Source: a virus. Taken from it: 64,000 nt of DNA. The translations under genes and the position numbers were made by a program. Each line of letters starts with the position of its first letter. Position 1 is the stretch's first letter. Shown here one piece after another: positions 1 to 51,700 of this stretch. Where the stretch lies: positions 1 through 64,000 of the IMG/VR virus record IMGVR_UViG_3300036770_001342; one strand, given 5' to 3'. The notes beneath the pieces were generated by a model, which saw only the letters and a program-made list of their open reading frames with translations, was not told the DNA's origin and made no database searches.

Positions 1-411
1 ATGGTCATAATACATGGCTCTTGTATCAAACAATGTATATGGATCGCTAACACGCAATCTACCAAATGCGTCTAAGTTAGTGCCACCTAAACTGACATTG
101 GCAGTACCACTGATTGATACATTGCCCTCTACGATCCATGGATCAGTGCCCTGTGTGACATTGACATTACCTGTGATAGTGTCAACTGTAATGTTGCCAC
201 CTTCTACTGTTACAGGGAGAGTGTTTCCTGATATATCGACATTACCAAAACTATCTATACCAACATTGCCTACAGTGATATTAGCATTACCTATGCTAAT
301 ATCAGCATCAGTACGCACATAGACATTACCCGTAGATTCGTCTAGGGCGAGGGCTTGCGTGATATTACGCAAGTACCAAGGTGCTACTTCTGTTGGGGTT
401 GGTTCAGCCAT
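1..411 (-). CDS. Virion structural protein, N-terminal part (3' end outside window)
   Basis: The reading frame starts with ATG at 411 and stays open to the left edge, giving 137 visible residues. It begins MAEPTPTEV and then consists of short repeated beta-type units rich in the pattern GN(V/I)xI or GNVxV, followed by DAFGRLRVSDPYTLFD near residues 115-130. That last motif recurs in structural proteins of aquatic T4-like phages, from memory. The repeats suggest a beta-helical or fibre-like fold. A GATAAATA late-promoter motif lies at 445-452 and a 12-bp hairpin covers its ribosome-binding site. The function is inferred as a virion fibre or baseplate component; the missing C-terminus prevents a closer call. 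Confidence 0.7.
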   Translation of the reverse strand, partial: MAEPTPTEVAPWYLRNITQALALDESTGNVYVRTDADISIGNANITVGNVGIDSFGNVDISGNTLPVTVEGGNITVDTITGNVNVTQGTDPWIVEGNVSISGTANVSLGGTNLDAFGRLRVSDPYTLFDTRAMYYDH

Positions 412-12905: not shown

Positions 12906-13689
12906 GTCCCATGTCCTTGCGGATTTTGGTTGCGCTGATTGAATGTATTGCATCGTCAAAAACCTCTTGCTCAATCTTGTAACCTACATCACGCCCATAT
13001 GTGATGTTCACGATATTTGGAACGACAACGATTTCATATTGACCTTGATACTTTGGATCTAAGTCTCTACGAATATACTCTTTTACCTGTTCAATAGCAA
13101 ATGGGTTTGACCCATTCCAACCTTGGCAATCACGGATCATGATACAGACTTGACCCGTTTTAGCCAAAGCACGTTCAAACAATGCACGATGTCCTGGATG
13201 CCATGGTTGCCAGCGACCCAACATCTGTACTGTTTCTTTCTGCCAATCAAATACAGGTCTGCGTTTATTTTTTAAAATATAATTTGCTACAAAAGGTACC
13301 CAAACTTCAGCATTCTGTTCTGTAATACGGAAATCGTATTCTTTAGGTGGAACAAATAATTTGTTGGTATCTTCAAAACGACCACGTTCTATAGTATCTA
13401 TCCATATGGTCCAATCTGCTTTATAATTATTGCGCATCTCTACTAAAGGAGCAACAAAGTCACAAATAACATAATCACATTCAGACATTTCGGCTAGATC
13501 ATACATTCTATGTGATTGTCTAATTCGACCTTCATGACTAAAATCCCAATCGTTGAATTGCTTACGTATATCATCAGCATTATACCAATCTACAGTTACA
13601 CCTATAATTGATTCTAATTCTTGTTTAAGTTTATTAGCAAAATAAGTCTTACCGCTTCCTGGTAGACCCATAATTAAAATTTTCTTCAT
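12898..13689 (-). CDS. Fused P-loop kinase / HxGH nucleotidyltransferase
   Basis: 263 residues, two domains. Residues 1-140 are a P-loop kinase: GLPGSGKT (8-15), then NADDIRKQFNDWDFS (38-52), which resembles the substrate loop of adenylylsulfate kinases. Residues 155-263 are a NadM/cytidylyltransferase-type domain with GRWQPWHPGH (HxGH at 164-167) and ISATKIR (251-257). Known fusions of this shape serve NAD or sulfate activation. A sulfotransferase-like gene is in the same window, so a role in PAPS supply is possible, but the second domain looks closer to NMN adenylyltransferase. Linked to the upstream gene by ATGA. Confidence 0.8.
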   Translation of the reverse strand: MKKILIMGLPGSGKTYFANKLKQELESIIGVTVDWYNADDIRKQFNDWDFSHEGRIRQSHRMYDLAEMSECDYVICDFVAPLVEMRNNYKADWTIWIDTIERGRFEDTNKLFVPPKEYDFRITEQNAEVWVPFVANYILKNKRRPVFDWQKETVQMLGRWQPWHPGHRALFERALAKTGQVCIMIRDCQGWNGSNPFAIEQVKEYIRRDLDPKYQGQYEIVVVPNIVNITYGRDVGYKIEQEVFDDAIHSISATKIRKDMGLE

Positions 13690-14960
13690 TTAAATTTACC
13701 ATTAGGATTTGCAGTTGGAGGAATACCTGCTCTGCTAGTTTTGAATCCAAACGCTTTAGCATTCTTTACTATACTGTCAGGCTTCACATCTATAGTTAGT
13801 GCAGTTTTGAAACGTGGATCATTTTTTTGTTTTTCGCTTGGAATGTAACCGCTGGCTTCTACCACGCTTCGCTCTTCTATATGAAATACTCTTCTTGCTT
13901 TATCGCTAAGATCACTGGGTTTTATAAGTTTAGCAGGTATTGTTTTTGCTTGTGATTTTATTGCTTTATGTAATCTATGGTTGCCATCAAGTATCCAGTC
14001 TATTTGACCTTGCCCGTCCAACATAACTAAAATAGGAAACTGATTAGATACTGTTACTTGATTGATCCTTTCTATTTCTTCTGGGTTTCCGTCCCAATGA
14101 AGTAGTTTACTCTTCAGATTGTCATTTATCGGAAGATCAATTTGTTTGATATGTTTGGTCAGTTCTAAGATATCCTGCAGTGTAATTTTTTCATTACCGT
14201 CTGACCAACTTGTTTCGGCTCCACCTTCTGCTACACCGTTTGGATCATAATCTTCTAAACTTAATTTTTTACTATGCAGTTCTTGCTTTTTATCCCATAG
14301 TTGTTGTATGTAACCTTGTTTACGTAATGCTTTAAACGCTAGATTTTCAGGCCCAAACTCGCCGGTTTTAGTAAGTCCGGCTTTGCGATATCTTTTTATA
14401 ATGTCTAGAACATTTTCAATATCTTCTAAACTTTCTGATTGTATTGCTAATTCTATTAATTGACCCAATTTTTCATATTTGGCTCTAGTATTAGCCTGAT
14501 CAAAGTTTGCTCTTTTCTTAACTGGAAATTTAATCCAATCTTTATTCAGTAAACTATATTCTCCAAGACTAATATGAGGTTGATTACTATCTTGTACATA
14601 TAATTCTACAGGTACACCATTAACTGTGATATCATGTGATTTGTTATATTCGTTCTTTTTGGCATTAAAGAGTTCTTGATAGACCTCATTATTTGGAAGT
14701 TTGCTAAAATCAACAAGAATGTGTAAATCTAAATCGCTGTGGGGTGTATAACTATATGCTGCATTACTACCACTGATAGTAATATCCTCAACGTTTAGTC
14801 CGGATAAACCTAATTCAGTTATAAAATCTTTTGCTATGATTGCTAGAGCATTGTAAACATCATTATGTAAATCTTGACCGGACCATAATTTAGGGTTTAA
14901 TTCATTATGAAATTTAACCGCGTCAGAAAGTTTAAATGACTCTAATTCTTTAATGTCCAT
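13686..14960 (-). CDS. Nucleotidyltransferase-fold protein with C-terminal ParB-like domain
   Basis: 424 residues from ATG at 14960. An in-frame ATG at 15026 is unlikely because its path crosses the tmRNA terminator hairpin. Residues 60-82 (ISGSNAAYSYTPHSDLDLHI) carry the GS and DxD motif of polymerase-beta-type nucleotidyltransferases. Near residues 320-345, ILVMLDGQGQIDWILDGNHRLH resembles the ParB/Srx-type DGxHR motif. It is a modification or nucleotide-handling enzyme of unknown substrate. TATAAATA ends 5 nt before the ATG and no ribosome-binding site is seen, so the transcript may be leaderless. Confidence 0.72.
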   Translation of the reverse strand: MDIKELESFKLSDAVKFHNELNPKLWSGQDLHNDVYNALAIIAKDFITELGLSGLNVEDITISGSNAAYSYTPHSDLDLHILVDFSKLPNNEVYQELFNAKKNEYNKSHDITVNGVPVELYVQDSNQPHISLGEYSLLNKDWIKFPVKKRANFDQANTRAKYEKLGQLIELAIQSESLEDIENVLDIIKRYRKAGLTKTGEFGPENLAFKALRKQGYIQQLWDKKQELHSKKLSLEDYDPNGVAEGGAETSWSDGNEKITLQDILELTKHIKQIDLPINDNLKSKLLHWDGNPEEIERINQVTVSNQFPILVMLDGQGQIDWILDGNHRLHKAIKSQAKTIPAKLIKPSDLSDKARRVFHIEERSVVEASGYIPSEKQKNDPRFKTALTIDVKPDSIVKNAKAFGFKTSRAGIPPTANPNGKFK

Positions 14961-14965
14961 ATGAG

Positions 14966-14973
14966 TATTTATA
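14966..14973 (-). promoter_or_regulatory. Perfect T4-type late promoter TATAAATA
   Basis: TATAAATA at 14973-14966 directly follows the UUCG hairpin and ends 5 nt before the ATG at 14960. With T4 spacing, transcription starts at or beside the start codon. Confidence 0.6.
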
Positions 14974-14975
14974 GA

Positions 14976-15001
14976 AGAATAGGGACCGAAGTCCCTATTC
15001 T
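14976..15001 (-). terminator. UUCG-tetraloop hairpin after the tmRNA
   Basis: An 11-bp perfect stem (AGAATAGGGAC / GTCCCTATTCT) closed by C(UUCG)G on the minus strand. This ultrastable loop is typical of T4 intergenic terminators. It lies at the 3' end of the tmRNA coding piece and before the next late promoter. The U tract is short, so it could also be a processing or stability element. Confidence 0.75.
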
Positions 15002-15346
15002 GACTATTGGGTATCAAGGTTGTCAACCCCGGCTTAGCCTCAAGCGGCTAGGCTGTAAACATCATCGTTTGCGGATGTTTGATTTACGCTAATTACGTTA
15101 GTCGTCTTTCGGACTGTCTGCTTGGGTACTACTTGCCCTGTCGAAACTGTTCATCCCCGTTGGATAGCCATCACGTACATTGCTGCAGAGGTGATGGGCG
15201 TTTGGTGGATTACCCCAACCTACTGATCTACTCCATTCACGCTCGGTGTAAAACAGATTGCGTGGTTCATCTTCTAATCTATTGGTGGAGATGGTGGGAT
15301 TCGCACCCACGTCCAGAACATTTTTCTCTTCGCTTCTTACAGTCAT
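15002..15346 (-). ncRNA. ssrA: Circularly permuted (two-piece) tmRNA
   Basis: The minus strand reads the acceptor piece first (about 15346-15283), ending in CATCTCCACCA with a T arm GTGGG-7-CCCAC. A spacer of about 124 nt follows, then the coding piece beginning GGGGATGAACAG at 15158. GGGGATG pairs with CATCTCC and gives the G3-U70 wobble that alanyl-tRNA synthetase reads. TTTCGACAGGG is the conserved tmRNA 5' region. The tag frame at 15072-15040 encodes ANDDVYSLAA and a TGA stop. ACAGTC in the coding piece pairs with GACTGT in the acceptor piece, as helix P2. The spacer holds a 7-bp hairpin (CCATCAC/GTGATGG). The RNA rescues stalled ribosomes and tags nascent proteins for ClpXP-type proteolysis. 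G at T-loop position 55 is unusual. Confidence 0.92.
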
Positions 15347-15351
15347 AAGAA

Positions 15352-15359
15352 TATTTATT
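15352..15359 (-). promoter_or_regulatory. Late-promoter-like AATAAATA for the tmRNA
   Basis: AATAAATA at 15359-15352 would start transcription near 15346, at the first base of the tmRNA acceptor piece, so no 5' trimming would be needed. One mismatch from TATAAATA. It overlaps the end of the intergenic gap after the glycosyltransferase gene. Confidence 0.45.
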
Positions 15360-15361
15360 AT

Positions 15362-16459
15362 TTAAATTGCACTTATTGGAATATTCTTTTTAATTGTTTG
15401 TAATTTCGTATATGTTTGTATAATTGATTCATCCAATATTATTCCAGTTTCATCATAATGTTTAAAGATTTTTTGTATTATATCCGGAGTATGACGATTT
15501 GAATATACTAGATCATAAAATTTTTCTCTATTATGCAATATTTTCAATGTTAAACTATTGTTATATTTTTTTAAATCGTGCAATGGAGTATCTGTAATTT
15601 TTTTAACTTCAAGGGCTATCATTTCAAATCTTTTTTCAACATCACTAATTTTGTCAAACGAATAATCAAAAATTTCATCATATAATTTAAAACCCATTGA
15701 TTGCAAAATTTTGTGTATTCCCTGACATCCTGCAATCAAAAACGGTTTGCCAACAATAATAGGCATAAATGTTTTTTCTGTAAAGAATGGAAGATTGATG
15801 GTAGATTCTGATACTAATTGAAAAAATGATTCGTAGAACTCTTTAGGCACATAGCATTGATCTTTTACCGTAGTATATCTATTGTCTAATGTTTTAGTCG
15901 CTCCATCATAATACTTAAACTCATATGAATTAGGTATGACTCCGGCGTCATTAGTATTATGCCAAGAATAAGCCGAATAATTCAACAAATCATGTTTACT
16001 TAATGAATCAATTAATAATTTCCTCCACATATGGGGTCTATTGTTAAGATATAAAAAGTGGTATGTGTTTTGATGGTCGTTTAAATTCTGTATTAGTAGT
16101 TTTTTAAGAGTAACATTTCGATATTGTAATTTAACTTCGTCGCATGTCCACCAAAAACTTGCGCCGGCAATACCTGCAGGCCAATTAATTACTTCTACAT
16201 TATCAGGTAATATATCAAAATCATAATCAAATTTTAAAAATTTATCATTTTTTCTAAAATCATATATGCAACCAACTATTATGTAAACTTTTATATTTTT
16301 TGATTTACTTATTTTTAAAATTTCTTCATAGTTGACTATGTTATAGAATTGCCATTCTAAATGACAAAATATTATGATACCTTCATAATCATTATCACGC
16401 AACTTTTGTAAGTCTGCGCTATTAGGAGAATTCCATATATTTGTGGTCCAGTAATTCAT
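15362..16459 (-). CDS. Glycosyltransferase-like protein (GT-B / family-10-like C-terminus)
   Basis: 365 residues from ATG at 16459, one base after the upstream stop; an earlier ATG at 16483 would overlap it. The N-terminal half is poorly conserved. FLYLNNRPHMWRKLLIDSL (about 135-153) and LPFFTEKTFMPIIVGKPFLI with GFKLYDEIFDYSFD match the same two blocks in the gene at 27982-29085. The F-TEK-hydrophobic-G-P-F/V arrangement is like the donor-binding region of fucosyltransferase-type enzymes. It is probably a sugar transferase of unknown specificity. Confidence 0.6.
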   Translation of the reverse strand: MNYWTTNIWNSPNSADLQKLRDNDYEGIIIFCHLEWQFYNIVNYEEILKISKSKNIKVYIIVGCIYDFRKNDKFLKFDYDFDILPDNVEVINWPAGIAGASFWWTCDEVKLQYRNVTLKKLLIQNLNDHQNTYHFLYLNNRPHMWRKLLIDSLSKHDLLNYSAYSWHNTNDAGVIPNSYEFKYYDGATKTLDNRYTTVKDQCYVPKEFYESFFQLVSESTINLPFFTEKTFMPIIVGKPFLIAGCQGIHKILQSMGFKLYDEIFDYSFDKISDVEKRFEMIALEVKKITDTPLHDLKKYNNSLTLKILHNREKFYDLVYSNRHTPDIIQKIFKHYDETGIILDESIIQTYTKLQTIKKNIPISAI

Positions 16460-16460
16460 A

Positions 16461-17726
16461 TTAAAATTCAAACAATAAATCACTATTTAAGTAATTACTA
16501 TTATTTTTTCTAAAGACCCAGATTGGTTCAACAAATATACTGTTCTTATCTGCTTCAACAATGGCGTGTGGGCGAGCCTGCATACGCATACCGATCTTAC
16601 CTAGATAATGTGCGTTTGGATATGACAGTATATCATCAACCATATGGTCACATAGATTCAATCGCGTACCTTTAGCAATGCGTGGCTCAATAATATTAAT
16701 CATCATATACGCATTATCAGTTAATGTATCCCATATCATACGATTGACTTTGAAAAAGAAATCATGTTTCCAACTATCAAATGTAGTATATCTACTCCAA
16801 CTTTGATTAGTGCTATTGTTTGCGGCGTAACGTTCTGTCTCGTAGTAAGGGGGACTTGTAAAATAAAAGTCAAAAGTATTTTCAAACTTACTCCAATCAA
16901 CATCTTCGCTAGGAAGATTATAGATTATAACTTTTTTTGTACCTAATACGATAAAATGATCACCTTTATCTTGCAGCACAGCAGTATCACATCCCAATAT
17001 GTTTTCATATTCAAGACATTGGTCTTTATATGTTTCATAAACTTCAGGGTTAGGATCGCACCCTACATATAATTCTGTACCTTTAGTTGCATAAAATCCT
17101 GCCAATCTATCTCCCCAACCGCAACTTGTATCTAATACCTTACGTGCGTTATGCTTTTCGTAAAGTGCTTTTGCAACACTAGGCTTAAATTGCGTTGCTG
17201 TGTAGGTGCCGATACGGAATGCGCTACGAAATGTATTTTGGCATACGTCACTATTACCTAATGTTCCCAAACGCCAAAAATGCCAGTTCATATCATTGAG
17301 TAATGTACGACTATGCCATATATCGTAAGGACTGCTACACAAATTACTACCACACTTCATACGATTTAGTTGTTGGAAATAATTGCTCACACTATTATAT
17401 GTGTGTGATTTGTCAATTACTCCTAGTGGGTTGTCGCTGTATTTGTATTTGTAATCAGCACGTTCATGAACGTTGATGGGATATTTGTATTGATCCAGCA
17501 TACTAGTCTTAACAAAACGTTCAAATAACTTATACATTTCATCGTAACTAATTTCTTTGCTAGGAAATGGTAAATTATTTGATATGATATACTCAGTTAG
17601 ACTTTCTTTGATATCCTTCTTGGGGTATTGCTGTATGAAGGTTCGCCAATCACTGTTGGGAATATGTGGTATTCCGCGACTGTCTTTATGTTTATCAAGG
17701 TAATTTAGGATATTTGGATCTATCAT
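16461..17726 (-). CDS. Amino DNA methyltransferase (N6-adenine or N4-cytosine type)
   Basis: 421 residues from ATG at 17726. VLDTSCGWGDRLAGF (197-211) is SAM-binding motif I, and YFTSPPYYETERY (288-300) is the catalytic (S/D)PPY motif IV of amino methylases. Motif I precedes motif IV. No restriction partner is adjacent, so it is probably an orphan methylase protecting or marking phage DNA. A TTGACA-17-TATCAT promoter ends 7 nt before the start, which would leave almost no leader. The N-terminal 190 residues carry no recognised domain and may hold target recognition. Confidence 0.85.
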   Translation of the reverse strand: MIDPNILNYLDKHKDSRGIPHIPNSDWRTFIQQYPKKDIKESLTEYIISNNLPFPSKEISYDEMYKLFERFVKTSMLDQYKYPINVHERADYKYKYSDNPLGVIDKSHTYNSVSNYFQQLNRMKCGSNLCSSPYDIWHSRTLLNDMNWHFWRLGTLGNSDVCQNTFRSAFRIGTYTATQFKPSVAKALYEKHNARKVLDTSCGWGDRLAGFYATKGTELYVGCDPNPEVYETYKDQCLEYENILGCDTAVLQDKGDHFIVLGTKKVIIYNLPSEDVDWSKFENTFDFYFTSPPYYETERYAANNSTNQSWSRYTTFDSWKHDFFFKVNRMIWDTLTDNAYMMINIIEPRIAKGTRLNLCDHMVDDILSYPNAHYLGKIGMRMQARPHAIVEADKNSIFVEPIWVFRKNNSNYLNSDLLFEF

Positions 17727-17764: not shown

Positions 17765-17936
17765 AATTCGCTTCGGCTTGGATTCGAACCTTGTCCTAGT
17801 CTTGTCGATCTGCACTTCCCACAGTACTGACCGAAGCAGTTTTTCTGGTTTATCTCTAGTGCCTATAGAACACCTTGATCCTCAAACTACGCCATCGCTA
17901 TGCGACAAACACTACTCCAGAAGGTCGTGCGGCTGA
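17765..17936 (-). ncRNA. Structured non-coding RNA with tRNA-like 3' domain
   Basis: A 222-nt gap without a gene, headed by a perfect TATAAATA. The 3' part (17837-17770, 68 nt) has tRNA geometry: a perfect 7-bp acceptor stem (GCTTCGG/CCGAAGC), U8, a 4-bp D stem with G18G19 and A21, and a GGTTCGAATCC T loop at the correct distance. But the T stem has two A-A mismatches, the anticodon arm cannot form, and CCA is not encoded. The 5' part folds separately: TTCTGG/CCAGAA, TAGTGTT/GGCACTA and a TCGC-ATA-GCGA hairpin. Either a decayed tRNA or a tRNA-like RNA with another job. Confidence 0.5.
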
Positions 17937-17951: not shown

Positions 17952-18326
17952 TTATTCTAAAGGTAGTTCAATAAGTTTGTTTTCACGATCAAGATATTTC
18001 ATTTCAATCTTAACAGGGTGAAATTCACGTAACGCTTCTACAACGTCATATGGGTCAAGTGGGCCGCAAGTATAAACATCTAGTTGGAGCAATGATGGCT
18101 TATCTTCATCCCAAACATGTAGTGCGATATGACTTGTCTCAATGATAGCGACAGCAGTTAGTCCACGATTGCCAACTACATCTAGGTACTTAGCAAAAGG
18201 ACCCATCATGACCTTCATGCCAATCTTATCAATAAGTCTGTTCATCCAATCGATTGCTAGTTGTTCTTCCTTTAGTGGATTACCAACTTCGGCACGAATA
18301 ATCAAGTGTTTATGTACTACAGCCAT
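17952..18326 (-). CDS. S-adenosylmethionine decarboxylase homologue (SpeD family, variant cleavage site)
   Basis: 124 residues, the length of the short bacterial class (B. subtilis/T. maritima type). GLTAVAIIETSHIALHVW aligns with the self-cleavage region; the pyruvoyl-forming serine is S65, H70 follows, and the catalytic cysteine is C87 in DVYTCG. The residue before S65 is threonine, where authentic enzymes have glutamate. SpeD homologues occur in aquatic phages, and some SpeD relatives act on ornithine or arginine, so substrate is open. Probable role: polyamine synthesis during infection. The start is joined to the preceding giant gene's stop as TAATG. Confidence 0.8.
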   Translation of the reverse strand: MAVVHKHLIIRAEVGNPLKEEQLAIDWMNRLIDKIGMKVMMGPFAKYLDVVGNRGLTAVAIIETSHIALHVWDEDKPSLLQLDVYTCGPLDPYDVVEALREFHPVKIEMKYLDRENKLIELPLE

Positions 18327-21300
18327 TATTTGTATTTCCTATTGTAATATTCTTTCAACCAATCCCATTCATAACTTAATTTTAATTTATCGAAATCTCC
18401 ACCTACCATATCATAATATTCTACACCGTCTTTAGCACCTTGTAAACAATCCTGGGCATATTTGCCTTCTGCTACAGTTAGCCAAATTTTTAATCTATCA
18501 AAACTTACATCTTTATAGTCAGATTTTAATTTTATTACTTCTCTGAATGCAGTACGCCAAGTATTGTATGGATCCGTATTAAACTCTGCTACCCCGGATA
18601 ACATGTCTACTACAGTATGCGGATCATCTAACGTAAAATCTAATCCGCGTCCTTTGTTGTTTAATGTTAGTTTTTTATTATATGCGATCATTGCTTGGTG
18701 ACCATATACTAATCCATTTACTGGATTAATAGCATTGAAGATATAATGTTTGGGACTCTGTAGCCTGTCAGGTTGCCAGTTCCAATCAAAGTCATTGTTT
18801 ACCTTTAATTTAGCAAATACTGTAAACATCCACTGTGTTTGTGACGCTTCAGCAGCAGCCTGATATGCTTGAACACGACCATTGACACCATCTACTCGCA
18901 CAACCCTGTTTGGTAACCCCTTAGTTACCTTTAGTAGATGCTCATAGTTTTCATCAGATTGCGGTTCTCCGTTACTTAAAAAGACAATATCTAAAGGTTT
19001 AGAATTAGTAAGTCTACTGGCTTTAGCAATATACGGGTAGTCATACAATTGGTCTTGAATATAAAACTTAACTTGTTTAGGTACTACTATGACCGATCCG
19101 CCCGTAGTTAAAATCTCTATGTTCTTTGTATGGCTAGCCCATAAATTTAATGGCTCTCTGTAGTCAATCTGTATATCGTTATCTGAGTTCTTCATTACAG
19201 CATACGGGAAATCATATTCAATTTTCCACGAATTGCTATGGGTATCGTCATCAATAGTATAAATTGGCGGTGCAATTCTGTGAGCCTTGTTGTGTGTGAC
19301 ATAATTTACTTTATTAAAATCTTCCAAATAACTTAATTCACTTATTGCAGAACGCAATTTGTTTACATCTATTAAGAATGTGTCACCAAATTTTTGTCTA
19401 TCACTAGCAAAAACATGTAAATTTTCTTTAGCGAAAGGATCGCAGATATATGTAAAGTCAAAATTGTCGTAATTACAAACGCTACTACAAATCCAAATAT
19501 AATGTTCTTTTTTAGTTTCTAATGTATCTAATAATTTTTTAAATGTTGAAAGATAACTGTCAACATATTTTACAATTTTAATTTCTTTATTTGTTTTATT
19601 AGCAAGGTTTTCTAATATAATACTTGTTTCTTTATTTCCGTGATCGATCAAGTAAACATCATACAAACAATCTGTAGCCGTTGTAGTCTTATCTTTTACA
19701 AAATTTAAATTTTGTAGGTGCTCTATAATTTTTACATATTTTGTATCATCGTTAAAGGTACTACCGTTTATTAAGTATGTGTTTCCCCAATGACTCCACT
19801 GTGTACCAAATACATGCACCATTTGCATTTGCCAAGGACTTGGATAAAAATTAAATTCAAAGTTTGAATAATCGTATTCGCTGTTTACTACCCAAAATAA
19901 ATTTGTTTTTGATTTTCTAATACATCTAGAAATTGTTTCTACCCAAGAATTAAAGAATCTTGTTTTAATAATATTTGGAAATCTTTTTTGTAGTTCTTCA
20001 TATCTATGTTTACTATCAATGTTATTTCTATCTATAAAGAATATACTTAGATTTGTTTCCTTAATATAAACTTGCTGCTCAGTTACATAGTTATATTCAC
20101 GGTAACCTGACATGTACATAGGACCATTAATATAATATGTTTGTGTATCTTTAGCGTTTTCATTACCGAACACATTCACATGTCTAAAGTTTTGACTATT
20201 AGGTTTCCAACTAAAATCAAATCCTTCATATGTGAGATCGGGGTTTAAAGCCCAAAATTCTTCATCTGGATGCTGTTTAATCAAATCATCTAATGTAGTC
20301 TGTATATAATATTTAGGAATATCTTTTTTCTTTATCACTTGCGCATTAGTACGTGGCATGTAAACAATATCAACTGCATCGGGAACTGTATATCTAGGAC
20401 CATTATCTTCCCATTGATAAATTTGTGGAGGACTATGAGGATTAGGTCTCCAACTGAAATCAAAATTTTCTAAATCGTCAGCGTTGTAGACAGACCAAAG
20501 TTTCATATCGATTCCAGGAGTTGCAACCAGTGTATCTAAATATTTTCGTTCTGTTGCTCCTTCCATATGGTATTCAACGCTAGGCTCTGTGGCTGCGTCG
20601 TTCCATTTATTACCAAATACATAAATTAGTGAAGGTTCTCTAGGATCAGGAACCCAACTATAATCAAAATATTCTACTGGTATCAGATTTTTCCATAATC
20701 CATTATTGTAGTTTGCCTTTAAGTATGCTTTACTATCAAGATATTTGTATTCAGTAGCACCAGGTACATGATACTCTAAAGTATGTTGTAATTCGACTGG
20801 GTTCCATTGATTGCCGAACACATATATGTAGGGAGGATCGTTTGGGTTAGGTCTCCAAGTAAAGTCAAAGTTGTCAACTGGCAACAATACTTTCCAGTAC
20901 TCATGCACAGGACTTACTTTTGCTATAACATCCTGCACATAATTATATTCTGTGGCTCCTGGCACTTTATATAAAACAGTTTTTTCAACTTCAGCCGCAT
21001 TCCATTGATTACCGAATACGTAAATATATGGAGGTGCGCCGGGATTAGGACGCCAACTGAAATCAAATTCTTCGACGGGTACACAAATTTCCCAACACTC
21101 ACTCATTGGTAACGTTTTCGCTACCATATTGTCCATATACTTTCTAACTGGTTCTGAATCTAATCCTTCACAATAATATTCTATTGTGGGTTCAGTCTCC
21201 GCACTGTTGCTTTGATTTCCCCATACATAGATAAATGCAGGTTCGCTAGGATCCGGTCTCCAACTGAAATCAAAACTTGACTTGTCTACTGGTATCAATA

Positions 21301-24300
21301 TTTTCCATTTATCCCATTCAGGTTCAACTTCTAAATTGTTACCCATGTATTTGATTTCTGTCGCGCCCGGTGTATGATAAGTCACAGTTGGCTTCTTTTC
21401 ACCCGGTATATACTTATTACCCCATACATAAATGTATGCTGGCTCACGAGGATCAGGCATCCAAGTAAAATCAAAGTTGGCTGGTTGTTGAGTTATAGTC
21501 CAGTTGTCCCATTGCGGGACTATTTCTACATTGCCCATGTATTTCTTTTCAGTAGCACCAGGAACAATGTATTCTAGTGTGGGGCGTAACTCACCTTTTA
21601 CATGCTTATTACCCCATACGTAAATGAATGGTGGTTCATTAGGATTAGGACGCCAACTAAAGTCAAATGACTTATCAACAGGTAAATAGATTTTCCATCT
21701 ATCCCATTCTGGTTCAACATCAACATCGTTGCCCATGTATTTGACTTCTGTTGCACCTTCTACTGTATATGTAACCGTAGGTATTTTTTCTCCGGGTATA
21801 TATTTGTTACCCCATATATAGATATAAGGCTCTGACGTAGGATCAGGCACCCAACTATAATCAAAGTTTCGTGTCTTTTGATGCGTTTGCCATTTAGTAT
21901 AATCTGCTGTAACTTGTACTATGCCCATGAATTTCCTTTCAGTAGCACCTTCAACAATATATTCGATTGTAGGAGATACTTCAGCAGGTACGTGTTGATT
22001 ACCCCAAGTATAAATGTATGCTGGCTCTCTTGGATCTGGCATCCAAGTAAAATCAAAGTCTGTTACAGGATAATATATTTGATAATTCTTATAGTCAGGC
22101 TTTAGTGGAACTAATTCCTGCATATATTTCTTTTCAGTAGCCCCCGGTGTAATATATTCTAATGTAGGACGCAATTCAGCATTAACATATTTGTTGCCCC
22201 ATACATAAATGTATGCTGGCTCTCTTGGATCTGGACGCCATGTCATATCAAATAAATCTGTGTCAACATTATGATACGTTCTCCAACGATCCACTTGTAC
22301 AGTTACAGGCACAATGCCCATATATTTCTTTTCTATTGCGTTATCGCAATAATACTCAAGTGTAGGTTGTAACTCGCCGGCTACATATTTGTTGCCCCAT
22401 ACATAGATATATGCTGGCTCATTGGGATCTGGTCTCCAAGACAAATCAAATTTTTCTGTGTCTATACCCTCGTAAATCTTCCAACGATCTAGTTCAGGTA
22501 ACACATCTATATTACCCATGTACTTTGTTTCTGTGGCATTGGGTACTTTATAAATCAATGTAGGCTTTACTTCACCCGGTATGTATTTGTTGCCCCATAC
22601 ATAAATGTATGCCGGCTCTCTTGGATCTGGACGCCATGCTAGATCAAATTTTGTTTTATCAATTTCTTGTACGATTGTCCATCTATCTTTTTCCTGTATT
22701 ACAGGTACATGTTCTTGCATGTATTTCTTTTCTGTTGCCCCAGGACAATGATATTCTAATGTAGGCTGCAATTCAGCAGGTATATACTTATTACCCCATA
22801 TATAAATGTATGCAGGTTCTCTTGGATCAGGTCTCCAAGACAAATCAAATTTGTTTGTATCAATCTCTTGATGTATTACCCAACGTTCATATTGCGGTAA
22901 TACTTCAACATCTCCCATATATTTGTAATCTGTAGCACCCGAAACATGATATTCTAACGTTGGTTGCATTTCAACAGGTACAAACTTGTTACCCCATGCG
23001 TATATGTATGGCGGATCTTTAGGATTAGGTCTCCAAGCAAAATCAAATTTTGTTCTATCTATGTTTTGATTTTCAACCCAATTTTCAAAATTAGGTAATA
23101 ATGTCACAAGTTCACTCATGTACTTGTATTCGGTAGCGCCGGGTACAATATACTCTACAGTAGGACTAGTAGCGGCGTCAAAATATTTGTTACCCCAAGC
23201 ATAAATGTAAGGCGGACTAGTTGGGTCTGGTCTCCAACAAAAATCAAAACTAGATTTATCAATATTGTATAAAATATTCCAGCAATCATAGTTAGGTAAT
23301 ACGCCTACCAATTCAGTCATGTATTTCTTTTCAGTAGCACCGGGGCAGTGATATTCTAATGTAGATTGTACTTCTGCCGGTACATACTTATTGCCCCATA
23401 CATAAATGTATGCTGGCTCTCTTGGATCAGGTCTCCAACTTAAATCAAATGTTGATTTATCTATAGGTTGAACTTCTACCCAACGATCCGTTTCTGGCAA
23501 TACAGGAACATCGTTACCCATATACTTGCGCTCAGTTGATTCCGGACAATGATATTCTAAAGTTGGGTGTAATTCAGCCTCAACATATTTGTTACCCCAT
23601 ACATAGATATATGCAGGTTCTCTTGGATCTGGTCTCCAAGTAAGATCAAAATTATTTTTATCTATAGACTCAAAAATCTTCCAACAACTAGTTTTAGGCA
23701 AAACTGAAATTAATTCTGTCATGTATTTCTTTTCAGTCGCGCCTTGACAATGATATTCAAGTGTAGGTTGTAACTCAGCAGATATCCACTTATTACCCCA
23801 AACATAAATGTAAGGAGGACTACCCGGATCAGGTCTCCAACTAAAGTCAAAATTTTCTATTTCATCATAAACTTTAAAATTAGTTTTATCTATTGATAGT
23901 TTAACATGCCACAATGTGTGATCTATATATTTTCTTTCTGTTGCGCCGTCTACATGATATTCTATTGTAGGCATAACTTCAGCACTATAATGCTGATTAC
24001 CCCAAACATAAATGTAAGGGGGACTTTTAGGATCAGGGCGCCAGCGAAAATCAAATGTATTTTTATCTACAGACTCAACTATCTTCCACTTAGTATAGTC
24101 TGGCATCAACTCTACAAGCCCGTCTACATATTTGTAATCTGTAGCACCTTCAATTACATATTCTACTACTGCTTTATGTGTGGCAGGAAAATATCTACAT
24201 CCCCAAGCATAAATGTAAGGCGGACTAGTTGGGTCTGGATGCCAACTAAAATCAAAAGTAGTTTCGTCTATTAGTTCGTTAATTTTCCAATTATCTGTTT

Positions 24301-24619
24301 TTATATTTTTACGTCTAACTGGTTCAACGTCTGTTCTATAGACTAATACTTCGCTGTCGTTTTTACTACAAAGCCATGTACCGCTATCTTTCTGATGTTG
24401 ACTAGGCCAAATATTGTTATGATCTTGAGTCCATACTTGATCATCATCAAGAAAATCAAAATCGAAATCCCAGTCAAAGTTTGTATAGTCACAATATTCG
24501 TTGACTATCCAAAAATGTTCCGTAGTGGCTTGATTTCTAGCATCATCTAGATTTTTTGCAGGCTTCTCTCTTGGATGGACGTTTGGTTTTTGTCCGTAAT
24601 AAAAGACATCACGTAACAT
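18326..24619 (-). CDS. Giant repeat protein of glycosyltransferase-like origin
   Basis: 2097 residues. After about 120 residues come about 19 full and several partial copies of a 65-residue unit with core FDFSWRPDPREPAYIYVWGN, then (P)TLEYHCPGATEKKYM and a short linker. From about residue 1400 the units become irregular (FEFNFYPSP...HVFGTQW; FDFTYICDP...HVFA). The last 250 residues (LDIVFLSNGEP, RVDGVNGRVQAYQAAAEASQTQW, DPYNTWRTAFREVIKL) match the glycosyltransferase-like protein at 42808-43761 but lack its DGDN motif. It may be a large scaffold or multi-site carbohydrate-binding protein. It is the first gene of the glycan island and is translationally coupled to speD. Confidence 0.75.
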   Translation of the reverse strand: MLRDVFYYGQKPNVHPREKPAKNLDDARNQATTEHFWIVNEYCDYTNFDWDFDFDFLDDDQVWTQDHNNIWPSQHQKDSGTWLCSKNDSEVLVYRTDVEPVRRKNIKTDNWKINELIDETTFDFSWHPDPTSPPYIYAWGCRYFPATHKAVVEYVIEGATDYKYVDGLVELMPDYTKWKIVESVDKNTFDFRWRPDPKSPPYIYVWGNQHYSAEVMPTIEYHVDGATERKYIDHTLWHVKLSIDKTNFKVYDEIENFDFSWRPDPGSPPYIYVWGNKWISAELQPTLEYHCQGATEKKYMTELISVLPKTSCWKIFESIDKNNFDLTWRPDPREPAYIYVWGNKYVEAELHPTLEYHCPESTERKYMGNDVPVLPETDRWVEVQPIDKSTFDLSWRPDPREPAYIYVWGNKYVPAEVQSTLEYHCPGATEKKYMTELVGVLPNYDCWNILYNIDKSSFDFCWRPDPTSPPYIYAWGNKYFDAATSPTVEYIVPGATEYKYMSELVTLLPNFENWVENQNIDRTKFDFAWRPNPKDPPYIYAWGNKFVPVEMQPTLEYHVSGATDYKYMGDVEVLPQYERWVIHQEIDTNKFDLSWRPDPREPAYIYIWGNKYIPAELQPTLEYHCPGATEKKYMQEHVPVIQEKDRWTIVQEIDKTKFDLAWRPDPREPAYIYVWGNKYIPGEVKPTLIYKVPNATETKYMGNIDVLPELDRWKIYEGIDTEKFDLSWRPDPNEPAYIYVWGNKYVAGELQPTLEYYCDNAIEKKYMGIVPVTVQVDRWRTYHNVDTDLFDMTWRPDPREPAYIYVWGNKYVNAELRPTLEYITPGATEKKYMQELVPLKPDYKNYQIYYPVTDFDFTWMPDPREPAYIYTWGNQHVPAEVSPTIEYIVEGATERKFMGIVQVTADYTKWQTHQKTRNFDYSWVPDPTSEPYIYIWGNKYIPGEKIPTVTYTVEGATEVKYMGNDVDVEPEWDRWKIYLPVDKSFDFSWRPNPNEPPFIYVWGNKHVKGELRPTLEYIVPGATEKKYMGNVEIVPQWDNWTITQQPANFDFTWMPDPREPAYIYVWGNKYIPGEKKPTVTYHTPGATEIKYMGNNLEVEPEWDKWKILIPVDKSSFDFSWRPDPSEPAFIYVWGNQSNSAETEPTIEYYCEGLDSEPVRKYMDNMVAKTLPMSECWEICVPVEEFDFSWRPNPGAPPYIYVFGNQWNAAEVEKTVLYKVPGATEYNYVQDVIAKVSPVHEYWKVLLPVDNFDFTWRPNPNDPPYIYVFGNQWNPVELQHTLEYHVPGATEYKYLDSKAYLKANYNNGLWKNLIPVEYFDYSWVPDPREPSLIYVFGNKWNDAATEPSVEYHMEGATERKYLDTLVATPGIDMKLWSVYNADDLENFDFSWRPNPHSPPQIYQWEDNGPRYTVPDAVDIVYMPRTNAQVIKKKDIPKYYIQTTLDDLIKQHPDEEFWALNPDLTYEGFDFSWKPNSQNFRHVNVFGNENAKDTQTYYINGPMYMSGYREYNYVTEQQVYIKETNLSIFFIDRNNIDSKHRYEELQKRFPNIIKTRFFNSWVETISRCIRKSKTNLFWVVNSEYDYSNFEFNFYPSPWQMQMVHVFGTQWSHWGNTYLINGSTFNDDTKYVKIIEHLQNLNFVKDKTTTATDCLYDVYLIDHGNKETSIILENLANKTNKEIKIVKYVDSYLSTFKKLLDTLETKKEHYIWICSSVCNYDNFDFTYICDPFAKENLHVFASDRQKFGDTFLIDVNKLRSAISELSYLEDFNKVNYVTHNKAHRIAPPIYTIDDDTHSNSWKIEYDFPYAVMKNSDNDIQIDYREPLNLWASHTKNIEILTTGGSVIVVPKQVKFYIQDQLYDYPYIAKASRLTNSKPLDIVFLSNGEPQSDENYEHLLKVTKGLPNRVVRVDGVNGRVQAYQAAAEASQTQWMFTVFAKLKVNNDFDWNWQPDRLQSPKHYIFNAINPVNGLVYGHQAMIAYNKKLTLNNKGRGLDFTLDDPHTVVDMLSGVAEFNTDPYNTWRTAFREVIKLKSDYKDVSFDRLKIWLTVAEGKYAQDCLQGAKDGVEYYDMVGGDFDKLKLSYEWDWLKEYYNRKYK
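20400..24260 (-). repeat. Tandem DNA repeats (about 200 bp) within the giant repeat gene
   Basis: Some units are nearly identical at DNA level, for example the segments around 22200-22240 and 22597-22637, and those around 23395-23440 and 23590-23635. Repeat period is about 195-205 nt, in frame. Unequal exchange or gene conversion between units is the simple explanation. Confidence 0.85.
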
Positions 24620-24627
24620 GAAACTAC

Positions 24628-26112
24628 TTATGAAACAACTTTTAGATTATAAAGTTTCTCAAAACGGTCGGCATCACTGCGATCATTGACCATTGGCTCG
24701 CCGCGAATATTCAATGATGTATTGAGCAACATAGGACATCCTGTTTCTTGATACCAGGCTTCTAAGAGTTGTCGTATCCCAGATCCATCTTTAGGCACTG
24801 TCTGTACACGACTAGTATTGTCGAAATGGCTAATAGCAGGATAAAGGTCAGGATGCTTGCAACTAGCGATGACTTGCATATACCTACTATCAATCCAATT
24901 ACGAGGCATATCGAAATACTGATGTACATGCTCTTCCAGAATGACTGGTGCAAATGGTCTGAACTTTTGTCTGCGCTTGATTTCATTTACTTTGTCCTTA
25001 ATTTCAGGACCCCTCGGATCTGCTAGTAACGATCTATTGCCCAATGCGCGAGGTCCAAACTCTGCGCGACCGCTAGCAACACCTACCATCTTATTTTTAC
25101 TTAATTCTTTAATAACTTCTTTGACTGGATATGGGCCTTTAATATTTGTACCTAAAAAAGCATCTGTCCAGTTTAATTTCTTACCATAACCTAGTGCGGC
25201 TGCTCCTAGACTATTACCCGCATCACCCGGGTTAGGCATGATCCATATGTTCTTGTAGTATTTTCCTAACAATCTATTTGCAAGACAGTTTAATGCTACA
25301 CCGCCGCCATATACTAAATTACTACTATTTCCAATACGTTTGGCTCTCATCATAACTTTTTCAACAAGTGTTTCGCAAACTAATTGTGCGCTAGCAGCAA
25401 TGTCCATATCATCTGCTTTTGATAACCAGCCTTCTGAATCTAAACCCGTATGTAAATTATATTTAAATTCCAAATCTTCAAGATTTGACAAATAATGACT
25501 TGCCATACGATTAGCATATGTTGGTTTACCGTATGCTGCCATACCCATAAGTATGTACTCTTCATCCATTGGTCGTAGGCCCACACGCTGCGTCATAGCA
25601 CTATAGAACATACCTATGCTGTTAGGATATTTCTTACTCCACAATTTTGTATAATGTGCCGTACCGTTATTATCGTAACATGCATCCCATATACTGATAC
25701 AGTCCATTTCACCGATAGCATCTATGATGACTACTGTAGCATGATTGAAAGGACTTGTTTGAAATCCTGCGGCTGCGTGTGTCTTGTGATGCACATGTGT
25801 TTTGATCGGCATGTCGCCGAACTTTTCATATAAATCAGGACCTATAATTTGCTTGACACTCAATGGTCCAATAGGTTGACCTGCTCGAAATTGACGTATT
25901 GCCTTTAACCATGGTTTTTCATAATAATTTAGTTGGTAGTTGCTATTAACTACATATTTCATGGCTTCATCTATGATTCCTTCACATAGATCAGCATCAT
26001 GTTTCTTCTTGCTATAACGTTCACTATGTGCTGCAAACACTATATTGCCGGTATCACTAACAATACTCAATCCGGCATCATGAAAACCACAACTTAGCCC
26101 TATGTACATCAT
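24628..26112 (-). CDS. Carbamoyltransferase (NodU/CmcH/TobZ family)
   Basis: 494 residues from MMYIGLSCGFHDAG; the frame extends to 26169 but the start at 26112 gives an ATGA overlap with the dehydrogenase. The N-terminal Kae1-like domain has HHKTHAAAGF (108-117) and VYGGGVALNCLANRLL, which hold metal and nucleotide. The C-terminal domain has GRAEFGPRALGNRSLLADPR and LLNTSLNIRGEP, diagnostic for the family. It transfers a carbamoyl group from carbamoyl phosphate, via carbamoyl-AMP, to a hydroxyl of a sugar or related molecule. In this island the acceptor is probably the sugar made by the neighbouring genes. Confidence 0.92.
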   Translation of the reverse strand: MMYIGLSCGFHDAGLSIVSDTGNIVFAAHSERYSKKKHDADLCEGIIDEAMKYVVNSNYQLNYYEKPWLKAIRQFRAGQPIGPLSVKQIIGPDLYEKFGDMPIKTHVHHKTHAAAGFQTSPFNHATVVIIDAIGEMDCISIWDACYDNNGTAHYTKLWSKKYPNSIGMFYSAMTQRVGLRPMDEEYILMGMAAYGKPTYANRMASHYLSNLEDLEFKYNLHTGLDSEGWLSKADDMDIAASAQLVCETLVEKVMMRAKRIGNSSNLVYGGGVALNCLANRLLGKYYKNIWIMPNPGDAGNSLGAAALGYGKKLNWTDAFLGTNIKGPYPVKEVIKELSKNKMVGVASGRAEFGPRALGNRSLLADPRGPEIKDKVNEIKRRQKFRPFAPVILEEHVHQYFDMPRNWIDSRYMQVIASCKHPDLYPAISHFDNTSRVQTVPKDGSGIRQLLEAWYQETGCPMLLNTSLNIRGEPMVNDRSDADRFEKLYNLKVVS

Positions 26113-27281
26113 CTTGTATTTCCATAATGTATTACAGTTATATTTTCTTGAGAACCTAAATTTCTCCATGGATCAATTACTACACTATTAGCGGGAAATT
26201 TAAATTCTTCTACCCATTTTTCCCAATATGCAATTAAGAATACATTTGCATTTTCAGGAATTGTAACATCATTGGTATTAGGATCATAATAAGAAATATT
26301 TCCTTTTCTAGCCTCTATGTAATGTCCTATTAATAAACTGCAACTACCATTAGTATAAGGCACAGCCGGCTTATATGATTTACCTAAGATACAAATATTG
26401 TTGCCATATTCTAGACATTTTTTTGCAATGTTGTCGCTTTGAATTTCTCTAGCCTTCATAATAGCATCAAATAAATCATAACCTAAATCTAATTTTTCAG
26501 CGAGATATCGTAAGGCAATATTGTCTCTAGGATGACATGCACCGGCGTCGCCTAGTCCTGCTTTCATATATGCTGGACCCATAATTCTATGTGTAGACTT
26601 TGCTAATGCTTGAGTAACGACATCAACATTTATATTACCGTTTTTTTCAGCAACATCTTGAATCATGTTTACAAGAGCAAGTTTAGTTGAAATAAATGTG
26701 TTGTAGAAAATCTTAATTGATTCTGCTTCGTCCCACGTGCCTACTTCATAACGAGGATTGTTTTCCATAAACACTTTATAAAAATCAATTAATTCTTGAG
26801 CATCACCTGTCAGACTTCCATCTTCTGTACCTATAATAACCATTTCTGGATTTACCATATCCCACTTTACAGTACCCATAGCAATTAGATATGGGTTATA
26901 GATGAAACGTGCGTTAGTGATACAAGGACGTAATTGACTTCTTACTGTGCCGGGTAGTACAGTGCTTATTAACACTACTAGTTGGTTAGATTTAGCGAAT
27001 TGATTTACTTGTGTTAGAATGTTCTTGACTATTGTATAATCAAAGTCTTTATTAGGCAAATGACTAGTGGGAGTTTCCCCGCCGTATATAGGATCATGTG
27101 GAGTAGGAGCAGCGATGAAAATTAAATCTTTCCCGGTAACTGCTTCTTCAATGCTAGAAGCCATCTTAAAATTAGCAGGAGTTCTAGGTTCAACATCATA
27201 TCCCACTACATCATAGTGTTGTGCCATAACTTCAGCACAATCTTGTCCTAATTTGCCCACACCAATCATTGCAACTTTCAT
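26109..27281 (-). CDS. UDP-glucose/GDP-mannose dehydrogenase family enzyme
   Basis: 390 residues. GVGKLG near residues 7-12 begins the NAD-binding Rossmann domain (variant of GxGxxG), ISTVLPGTV lies at 105-113, and the catalytic cysteine is C249 in GLGDAGACHPRDN. The C-terminal domain carries GKSYKPAVPYTNGS, corresponding to the GxxxK motif. These enzymes oxidise a sugar nucleotide twice to the uronic acid. It is linked by ATGA overlaps on both sides, to the SGNH-like gene upstream and the carbamoyltransferase downstream. The sugar substrate is not readable. Confidence 0.9.
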   Translation of the reverse strand: MKVAMIGVGKLGQDCAEVMAQHYDVVGYDVEPRTPANFKMASSIEEAVTGKDLIFIAAPTPHDPIYGGETPTSHLPNKDFDYTIVKNILTQVNQFAKSNQLVVLISTVLPGTVRSQLRPCITNARFIYNPYLIAMGTVKWDMVNPEMVIIGTEDGSLTGDAQELIDFYKVFMENNPRYEVGTWDEAESIKIFYNTFISTKLALVNMIQDVAEKNGNINVDVVTQALAKSTHRIMGPAYMKAGLGDAGACHPRDNIALRYLAEKLDLGYDLFDAIMKAREIQSDNIAKKCLEYGNNICILGKSYKPAVPYTNGSCSLLIGHYIEARKGNISYYDPNTNDVTIPENANVFLIAYWEKWVEEFKFPANSVVIDPWRNLGSQENITVIHYGNTR

Positions 27282-48790: not shown

Positions 48791-51700
48791 CTAAACATCC
48801 AATCTTAAGAAGTTAGGTGCTGACCCTTCTGCGATCTGCAAGGGGTCGCCCTGTGTAGTATTATAGATTCCGGGAATCTTATTCCAAGTATCATTATAAT
48901 TTATGTTCGTCATAGTATTCTTATCTAAAAAACTATAAACTTCGGTATATTTTGGAATGTACACTTGTATACCAGAACCGTTGGCCCCGCGCTCTACTTC
49001 CATACTATTGGTAAATTGATCCACACTCAATACACGCATGTATTCACCCTGCATGTATATCAATTTACCCTCATATACAGTAATTGTCAACAAGTCTCCT
49101 TGTTCAATCCAATCTCCTTCCTGTATTCTAATGTATGGTCCTGTTGATCTGACTTCTAATTGTAAGAAATCTTCTTCAATAAGTCCTTCACGTCCTAAGG
49201 TGTTATTATATACACTTACGTCTATGATATCATTTTTATCTGCATTTAATGGTATGTAATAATAACCTGCTTCCTTAATAGGAGCAACATTTGTTTGAAC
49301 ACTCTTGAAAGTTAGATTATTAATATCATTTACATAAACAATGTTTTGATATTCTGTCAATACTTCTGTCAACCAAGTTCTTGAATCGCTGTTTGCTCTG
49401 TAAACAGTACCTTGATTATTTTTATCCACTGTATTTACATACACCATTTCGTTAGGTGTTGCAGAAGGCATCATGCTAGTGATAACAATTTCATCATCTA
49501 TACCGATAGGAGCCAATATACTTACTTCATTTGCTGCGTTCAATCTTAATTCAGAAGATGGTACACGTTTACCATTTACAGTTACCCATAAACGGTCAAC
49601 ATTAGTTTGTTCCCATTGAGTCAATACTATGTTAGTTGACAGTTGAGGTGTGAGTAATATTGGTGCGCCGTTTATTGTTTCGCTGACACTAATCTTGTTA
49701 TTATCATGATCTATACTACTAATGTAATATTTTTCTCCTGCAATAATTTGAGGAATAGAAGTTGAAGTTCCTAATTTAACATTACTTTCTGTAAAGTAAA
49801 CAGGAGTATACAATACTAACGGCAATATATTTTGTACTTCTAGTTCTGTGCTTGTGCAACTTGTAACTCTAGTGGTTTCTAAAATCCAAGTATCAGAAGG
49901 CCATACATAGCCGCCACTAATATAACTGTCGGATATTGTTATAGGATAATTTACAGCATCTACATATGGGCTATAATTCTCTTCTGGATGTTCGGGGAAA
50001 TATTGATATAGATCAAATTGTTCAGAATTGATCACATGTACATAGAACAAATTATTGTTTAATTGTACACTACCCTGAATACCATCTATACGCACTAAGT
50101 CATTTGTTGATAGTAAATGAGGTACAGCAGTTTGAACACGAACTGCTGGTTGACCACCAACTGCTACGTGCATTAATCCACTGTCGTTGACTGTTGGATA
50201 TTCTAAACCATTTTCGTCAATTACTTTGAATCTATTGCCAGAAATAACTTCATGTACCTTATATTCAGTACCGTCTGTATTGACACCGCCAAATCCTTGA
50301 TATACTGGGCTACTACCAGGAATATCAATTTGGAATAATACATTTTGTCCTATAACCATATTTGTTGTGCTATCTGCTATAAAATAGCCCCCTACTGCAC
50401 TTGAAGTTTGAGTGTCTAGTAATGGTTGAGTTATAGTGTTATAAACATTGTTGATAGCAGTAACGTTAATTGGACTTAATTCATATTGAGTGTTTAAATA
50501 CTGTCTTTGTGTATCATTGAATGTAGTTACCGCAATCGTATCATTTACTGTTGGTTCTAATGTATCAAATACTAGTACAGCCTGATTATAGTTAATAGTA
50601 TATTGATCAGGCATTATTCTTAAACCATTCACTTCAACGATAGCGTTTGTATCGTTATCTTCGCCTAAATAATTTGTTAGATAATAACTACCTTTTGTTC
50701 CGTTACCTGCAAATACTTGAGTTTGCGGTAATGTATAACCATATTGTGTAGGTAATGTTTCTCCAAAGAAAGTAAATGAGATATAATCTACAGATGTATC
50801 GTACTCACTAGCGAATACTACCTTGGCAGAAATTTGATTATCTGCTAACATAACTGCATAATCTTCTGTGATGAAGTTTGATTTACCTAATGCATTTGTT
50901 AATGTTACAGCAGGACCTCCTACTGTATCGGATACAGTAAATTGAGTTCCCCCTGATAATACTTCTTTAATGTAATATGTTTTGTGAGGAATTAGTCCGC
51001 CAAATATATTATTATCAAATATAATTTTTTGATTTGGTAATAATCCAACTGTAGAATATGTGATCAAACTATTGTCTGATGCTTTGGATCTAATAACTAA
51101 ATTAGTATCACCGTTAATTAGTTTATTACCATTATAGAATACAGCAGGTGGTGTCCAGTATAAACCAGGACCATTTTGCGCTACTGCAATCATACCAGAT
51201 CCTGTATCAGAAGTTAAATCAAATATAGGACCTGCAATACCTTCATTAATTGAGTCTGAAACTGTTATAGTTTTTTGTACTGAGTCAATAGTTTTGACAT
51301 AATACGGAGTATTTTCATTTAACCCACCAAATACTTCGCCAGTAAAGTAAACGTCATCATTTAAAGTGAATATAGATACGTCATTTACTGTTATAGTGTT
51401 CAATAAACTATCAGTTGCAATTGCTTCTGTAGAAGTAGGATCAGTAGTTGGTCTTATGATTCCGCTACCGTTTAATCTGTCTGCGGTATAGTTACAATTC
51501 AACCAAATTTCTTGGAATCCAGTATTACTATTGTCACGTAATGGATCAATTTGTGTATTTGATTTGACTAATTGATCGCCATTACCGACTTCATATACAT
51601 CCACACGTAATTGCTGTGTTTCAGTAATATTTGTGTTTAAGGTTATAGTTTTATTTACATAGTCTACAACATAATCATTATTTGGATAGATAGCAGTTGA

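Follow-up and report, generated by a model that had tools for sequence, protein, structure and literature searches.

A permuted tmRNA gene in a jumbo phage fragment, and apparent small protein genes in the intervening segments of its phage relatives

Permuted tmRNA genes are already known from phages, and what appears to be undescribed is an intervening segment that codes for a protein. A two-piece tmRNA was found in the Methylophilales phage Melnitz, in a study that called 53 of 133 unique phage-genome tmRNA structures two-piece (PMC9004378, from the part of the paper that was available); a sequence-only reading of the locus described here had asked whether a permuted phage copy was on record, and Melnitz supplies one. 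A survey of 97,179 tmRNA sequences (PMC11915505) reports one intervening sequence with a tRNA gene and a second with a repeat, and the available part of its text mentions no protein gene in such a position. The open full-text literature, which was the scope of the search (subscription papers lay outside it), yielded no protein gene in a permuted-tmRNA spacer.

Two arrangements from the available part of the same survey (PMC11915505) bear comparison with the phage genes. The permuted tmRNA with tRNA-Ala in its intervening sequence likewise nests a second gene, but that is an RNA gene in one metagenome-derived instance, whereas the cargo in the phages seems to consist of protein genes that recur and are exchangeable. 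The tmRNA genes with a group I intron in the T-loop likewise hold a removable insert; the intron is self-splicing and sits at another site, whereas the phage spacer is the natural intervening segment and would be removed by tRNA processing.

The analyzed stretch of 64,000 nt, called the window here, comes from a linear IMG/VR virus record of 106,893 b. The same record carries portal, baseplate wedge, baseplate hub and virion proteins, which bears out the first description of the tmRNA gene as phage-borne. The portal is about 52% identical to the portals of the jumbo phages Phosso, PA5oct and Paride, and the record is a fragment of a jumbo phage; in the nearest jumbo isolates, PA5oct and Paride, a permuted tmRNA is absent. 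The gene downstream of the tmRNA gene in the window is its syntenic neighbor in several relatives as well. Elsewhere in the window, the Rfam COG2908 RNA motif (RF02939) lies between two genes at 17890-17934 (-), and it is also found in a relative, L047, at 159-203 (+), with scores of 67 and 71 bits. Adjacent carbamoyltransferase and UDP-glucose dehydrogenase-like genes occupy 24628-27281 (-), and there are very long open frames of 4976 aa (48791-63721 (-)) and 2097 aa (18326-24619 (-)).

The window contains a complete permuted tmRNA gene in the order acceptor piece, intervening segment, coding piece. ARAGORN reports it as tmRNA* (permuted) at 14949-15375 on the minus strand with the tag ANDDVYSLAA, the single tmRNA gene that it finds in the 64-kb window, along with zero tRNA genes. 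RF01850 (beta_tmRNA) aligns over the full model (1-331) at 124.4 bits (E 1.9e-37, gathering score 84 bits), and RF04321 (tmRNA_permuted) scores 121.3 bits against a gathering threshold of 47 bits. In clan competition among the alpha, beta and cyano tmRNA models beta_tmRNA wins above its gathering score, a beta-type label that reflects the covariance-model score and says nothing about descent from a betaproteobacterial ssrA. ARAGORN and the Rfam permuted models were the check that the sequence-only reading had proposed, and both agree with its claim that the acceptor end lies upstream of the coding piece on the same strand; that this is the minus strand had gone unstated. Its acceptor stem GGGGATG/CATCTCC with a G-U pair (the third), its ten-codon tag and its pairing ACAGTC/GACTGT are each present. 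A promoter and terminator scan gave nothing exceeding shuffled sequence. The locus is a real permuted phage tmRNA gene, and its parts are listed in Table 1.

Table 1. Parts of the permuted tmRNA gene and its neighbors, in window coordinates
Feature	Position	Strand	Details
Upstream gene	15362..16483	(-)	function unknown; stop 15 nt before the ATG at 15346
Conserved 82-aa open reading frame	15346-15098	(-)	MTVRSEEKNVLDVGANPTISTNRLEDEPRNLFYTEREWSRSVGWGNPPNAHHLCSNVRDGYPTGMNSFDRASSTQADSPKDD; overlaps both tmRNA pieces and the spacer
Acceptor (3' tRNA-like) piece	15346-15283	(-)	64 nt, from ATG at 15346 to the CCA end at 15283; ARAGORN, Rfam, covarying helices
T arm to CCA	15314-15283	(-)	
T stem-loop	about 15310-15294	(-)	
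Acceptor 3' strand	15293-15287	(-)	CATCTCC
End of acceptor piece			CATCTCCACCA
Intervening segment (spacer)	15282-15159	(-)	124 nt; bears the conserved coding core LEDEPRNLFYTEREWSRSVGWG
Coding piece	15158-15002	(-)	opens with acceptor 5' strand GGGGATG and GTTTCGACAGGG
Start of coding piece	15158-15136	(-)	GGGGATGAACAGTTTCGACAGGG
P2 helix	15117-15112 with 15344-15339	(-)	ACAGTC pairs with GACTGT; joins both pieces
Tag reading frame	15072-15040	(-)	ANDDVYSLAA, stop TGA; 10 codons, hydrophobic -LAA end
Terminal hairpin	15000-14977	(-)	GAATAGGGACTTCGGTCCCTATTC; last helix of the beta_tmRNA model
Downstream gene	13686..14961	(-)	start ATG; nucleotidyltransferase-like by inspection; matches phrog_36119 (unknown function)

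The window gene shares with the permuted tmRNAs of RF01850 and RF04321 the gene order, the G-U acceptor stem, the T arm, the inter-piece pairing, the tag frame and the terminal hairpin. Unlike them, it is phage-borne, its segment is 124 nt long, with 121 positions inserted where the model has 25, and that segment carries part of a conserved reading frame.

Relatives were sought through the downstream gene, and a permuted tmRNA was found directly upstream of it or elsewhere in 14 of the 40 records searched; the relatives' records reach up to 524 kb. Their tags differ (ANDETFALAA, ANDSVYALAA, ANDELYSLAA, ANDELFALAA, ANDSQFSIAA and others), with an LAA end in most. Compensatory changes are seen in the acceptor stem (GGGGATG/CATCTCC, GGGCCTG/CAGGTCC, GGGCCGG/CCGGTCC) and in the inter-piece helix (GACTGT/ACAGTC, GATCGT/ACGATC, GCTGT/ACAGC, GTTGT/ACAAC), and the T stem is GTGGG/CCCAC in the window and GCGGG/CCCGC in L008. 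Because the same helices recur in this way, those of the window are not mere chance. A permutation test of the inter-piece pairing gave a small but consistent excess (5.54 vs 5.19, sd 0.06); better evidence comes from the aligned compensatory changes. A match to GTTTCGAC in L019 belongs to a protein gene rather than to a tmRNA.

These comparisons bear on whether the gene is a decaying tmRNA copy captured from a host. The loss of the closing stem and a spacer that exceeds that of the Rfam model would fit decay, but the helices are intact with compensatory changes, the tag is intact, and the location is the same in diverged phages; such an origin is disfavored and hardly credible. SmpB was not found in the window's record, and it is absent from all 15 phage records searched, several of them fragments, so host SmpB would have to serve the phage tmRNA. 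Replacement of or competition with the host ssrA, or the tagging of host proteins for degradation, had been put forward in the sequence-only reading as what the gene could do. This absence would also suit an RNA that mainly sequesters host SmpB or competes with host tmRNA instead of performing trans-translation, as has been proposed for the tag-less DS6A RNA (PMC4131195 and PMC11915505, in their available parts). Such a decoy would have no need of the complete tag frame and coding piece that are retained here, or of the LAA tags of most relatives, and this role seems quite improbable.

The preferred reading, to which we give a probability of roughly three in four, is that this jumbo phage has a working permuted tmRNA gene of the beta type and that a protein gene rides on the same precursor RNA. 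By analogy with known permuted tmRNAs, host tRNA-processing enzymes (RNase P and 3' enzymes) would cut past CCA and ahead of GGGG, leaving two pieces that the acceptor stem and the P2 helix would hold together. With the host alanyl-tRNA synthetase and host SmpB, the RNA would rescue stalled ribosomes and add ANDDVYSLAA, and the precursor may in addition be translated into the cargo protein. While the tmRNA identification made at first sight stood, that reading had overlooked the frame through the spacer and both pieces, and also the cargo genes of relatives.

Pattern scans of IMG/VR, partly selected for cargo features and requiring full acceptor pairing, gave 148 distinct phage permuted tmRNA genes, whose spacers measure 25-531 nt. 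A simple rule (Shine-Dalgarno sequence (SD) and start close to CCA, at least 18 aa) finds 95 frames that end within the spacer, 14 that enter the coding piece, and 39 genes without a frame. In a scan that used the T arm only and was blind to the spacer, about 30% of the distinct genes (20 of 67) had a cargo frame, 16 stopping in the spacer and 4 in the coding piece. Typically the SD lies directly past CCA, and the stop is often 1 nt ahead of the second piece. Frames were open to the spacer end in 83 of 105 cases, compared with 8.0 in dinucleotide shuffles that kept the SD, start codon and last 8 nt fixed (sd 2.7, maximum 17 in 200); for spacers of at least 120 nt the figures are 45 of 60 vs 0.7. 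Pooled over families, the cargo frames have pS 0.30 and pN 0.077 (pN/pS 0.26), with most changes at third positions.

Among the predicted cargo products, Pfam recognizes a thioredoxin, a GNAT acetyltransferase, CxxCxxCC and PGDYG proteins and a weak HNH match. Short hydrophobic peptides of 22-26 aa recur, such as MNDDLTHLAIGVVVVLVVFALVLL; membrane peptides of 22-24 aa are among them, which makes the spacer cargo a likely source of very small phage proteins. In L047 a 133-aa gene fills a 415-nt spacer, with the SD AAGGAAG just past CCA and a TGA stop 1 nt short of the coding piece; Rfam aligns the whole gene over this spacer at 119 bits, and ARAGORN missed it. Tblastn of two cargo proteins against the phage collection gave no match. 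The longest spacer (L093, 531 nt) encodes a 152-aa protein with the weak HNH match and could be a mobile, homing-type insert. In six loci with spacers of 214-474 nt (L130, L214, L235, L251, L258 and L255) the first SD frame is membrane-like, 34-36 aa long and ends early, leaving space for a second frame; that of L255 seems GNAT-like by inspection.

The cargo changes while the tmRNA around it stays nearly the same. With a length filter that dropped contig-end truncations, unrelated cargo sits between near-identical tmRNA halves in L096 and L109 (98% in both flanking pieces), L135 and L256 (99% and 98%), and L121 and L194 (94-95%). The 220-nt coding pieces of L405 and L406 are identical; the spacer holds a 39-aa gene in one of them and is empty, at 54 nt, in the other. 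L387 and L406 have 80 of 81 aligned acceptor-piece columns in common, again with cargo in one and none in the other. Together, the sequence statistics show a permissive and exchangeable site for putative small genes in the intervening segment of these phages. What has hitherto been treated as throwaway would thus be a hotspot of small protein genes in many large phages, one of them cultured. In 84,980 bacterial and archaeal genomes, scanned for two exact cargo patterns and not for bacterial spacers at large, the coding-piece-side pattern had 0 matches; the sole match to the CCA-side pattern turned out to be a tRNA-Ala with a protein gene behind it, and was discarded.

The ends of the spacers pair and so extend the acceptor stem, with a mean duplex of -12.7 kcal/mol compared with -7.7 (sd 0.2) for permuted partners, alike in coding and non-coding spacers. 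CCA and SD both lie within the extended helix, and in coding spacers its 3' strand gives Leu-stop (TTA TGA T|GGG). Not all long spacers code: that of Sinorhizobium phage Phosso (L381, PV764938 349596-350198), about 397 nt, has no evident SD frame. Such a spacer, and the clean extended stem that short spacers make, would be expected if the segment were kept as a free small RNA or a pure processing signal and the relatives' frames were incidental. Against this stand the open frames, the purifying selection at the protein level and the recognizable domains, and we regard it as very improbable. The Phosso segment itself resembles two separate hairpin blocks, and its permuted tmRNA, which is unannotated, was detected by RF04321 and missed by ARAGORN.

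In the window's own lineage, which has seven distinct complete members (the window, L008, L288, L289, L290, L291 and L410), a frame of 67-82 aa extends over more than the spacer. From an ATG at the very start of the acceptor piece it continues across the T arm, CCA and the spacer, where its core is PRNLF[YF]TEREW, to a stop inside the coding piece, 61-85 nt into it where measured. The spacers of 124, 94, 79, 91, 97, 94 and 79 nt are all 1 mod 3 in length, a chance of about 1 in 700 under independent indels. Ordinary acceptor pieces contain a TGA at GTA|TGA (T in 87 of 91), whereas every lineage member read has AGA, GGA or CGA, and the last lineage scan placed no constraint on the base replacing this T. 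No stop interrupts the acceptor-piece frame in 6 of 6 lineage members, vs 5 of 140 others. Variable columns in the 18-codon core number 5, 7 and 15 by codon position (Fisher p 0.0006), and the spacer part of the frame has pS 0.57 and pN 0.24, which points to purifying selection on amino acids, in tests that are not fully independent because the seven members share ancestry. The parts within the tRNA-like halves have pN/pS of 1.0 and 2.7, no signal, as expected from RNA constraint and equally from non-coding sequence.

An SD (AGAGG) precedes the ATG in five loci (L408, L409, L410, L412 and L414). The window has none before the ATG at 15346, and neither it nor L008 has an in-frame SD-ATG within the spacer or the closing stem usual in relatives (-2.0 and -3.4). 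A similar peptide core, YYYTESEWNR..PP, is found in L103, where the spacer supplies a normal SD-ATG; this suggests that the window lineage relocated its start codon upstream. For the 82-aa frame Pfam and PHROGs gave no significant family, there is no solved or family relative, and AlphaFold predicts no fold for the product, which seems disordered (pLDDT 54). The sole tblastn match of the window spacer frame in the phage collection, from Providencia, was at chance level and was discarded.

The window could accordingly be read as an ordinary permuted phage tmRNA, with its frame an untranslated by-product of RNA constraint and shared ancestry and with real cargo only in the SD-ATG relatives. The missing SD, the overlap with constrained RNA, the lack of relatives and the predicted disorder all agree with a by-product. 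It would leave unexplained that seven of seven spacers keep the frame, that the acceptor-piece TGA is always gone, that third positions vary in excess and that five loci have an SD, and we consider it unlikely. On the strength of the frame-keeping spacers, the removal of the TGA, the open acceptor frame and the third-position excess, the frame is taken to be probably coding, and the precursor in the window lineage is probably both pre-tmRNA and mRNA. Since the frame reaches from the 5' end of the acceptor piece into the coding piece, each transcript would be either translated into the protein (82 aa in the window) or cut into tmRNA, never both simultaneously. This would be a natural case of one transcript usable as mRNA or as structured RNA.

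Frames ending past the processing site occur in the window lineage, Melnitz, L103, L209, L345 and others. For these, processing would strip the stop codon, and the cut cargo mRNA, now a nonstop mRNA, might itself be a substrate that the same tmRNA rescues and tags. A possible analogue is arfA, whose stopless mRNA is repressed by tmRNA (PMC10107115, available part); unlike arfA, the phage mRNA would be the tmRNA's own precursor. More generally, we tentatively propose, as a possibility that is still doubtful, that phage permuted tmRNA precursors are bifunctional with the spacer as a swappable cargo site, and that, where the frame ends past the processing site, the supply of tmRNA and the output of cargo are joined in a single self-limiting circuit. 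Ribosome rescue may then be linked with the expression of a gene that lies within the very precursor from which the rescue RNA is made.

The idea of a bifunctional precursor is testable because a cargo frame is present in a cultured phage. The Melnitz tmRNA spacer holds a 54-aa SD-ATG frame (MZ577097 46096-46257; L385 1584-1745), MFKWLSKTRLVVITRDYFRERNRKADAKIPKYLSGTRSVYDGGELGSTGRNRKV, that enters the coding piece and whose predicted peptide includes MFKWLSKTRLVVITRDYF; it is unannotated in the sequence record and unmentioned in the available part of PMC9004378. Standard annotation can miss such genes, as ARAGORN did with the 415-nt spacer of L047. Like the window gene, the Melnitz ssrA is a permuted phage tmRNA with a conserved frame running into the coding piece, from an SD-ATG in the spacer in Melnitz; unlike it, its best older Rfam model is alpha_tmRNA, its tag is ANDNYVPVDYALAA, and a glutamine riboswitch follows. 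The frame is conserved in IMG/VR relatives, and six distinct versions preserve it, with spacers of 142 and 166 nt, both 1 mod 3, and pN/pS 0.34. L401 and L402 encode the same protein as the Melnitz cargo, but with the stop within the spacer. In L401 this Melnitz-type cargo sits on a coding piece and tag unlike those of L402, a mosaic exchange between tmRNA halves.
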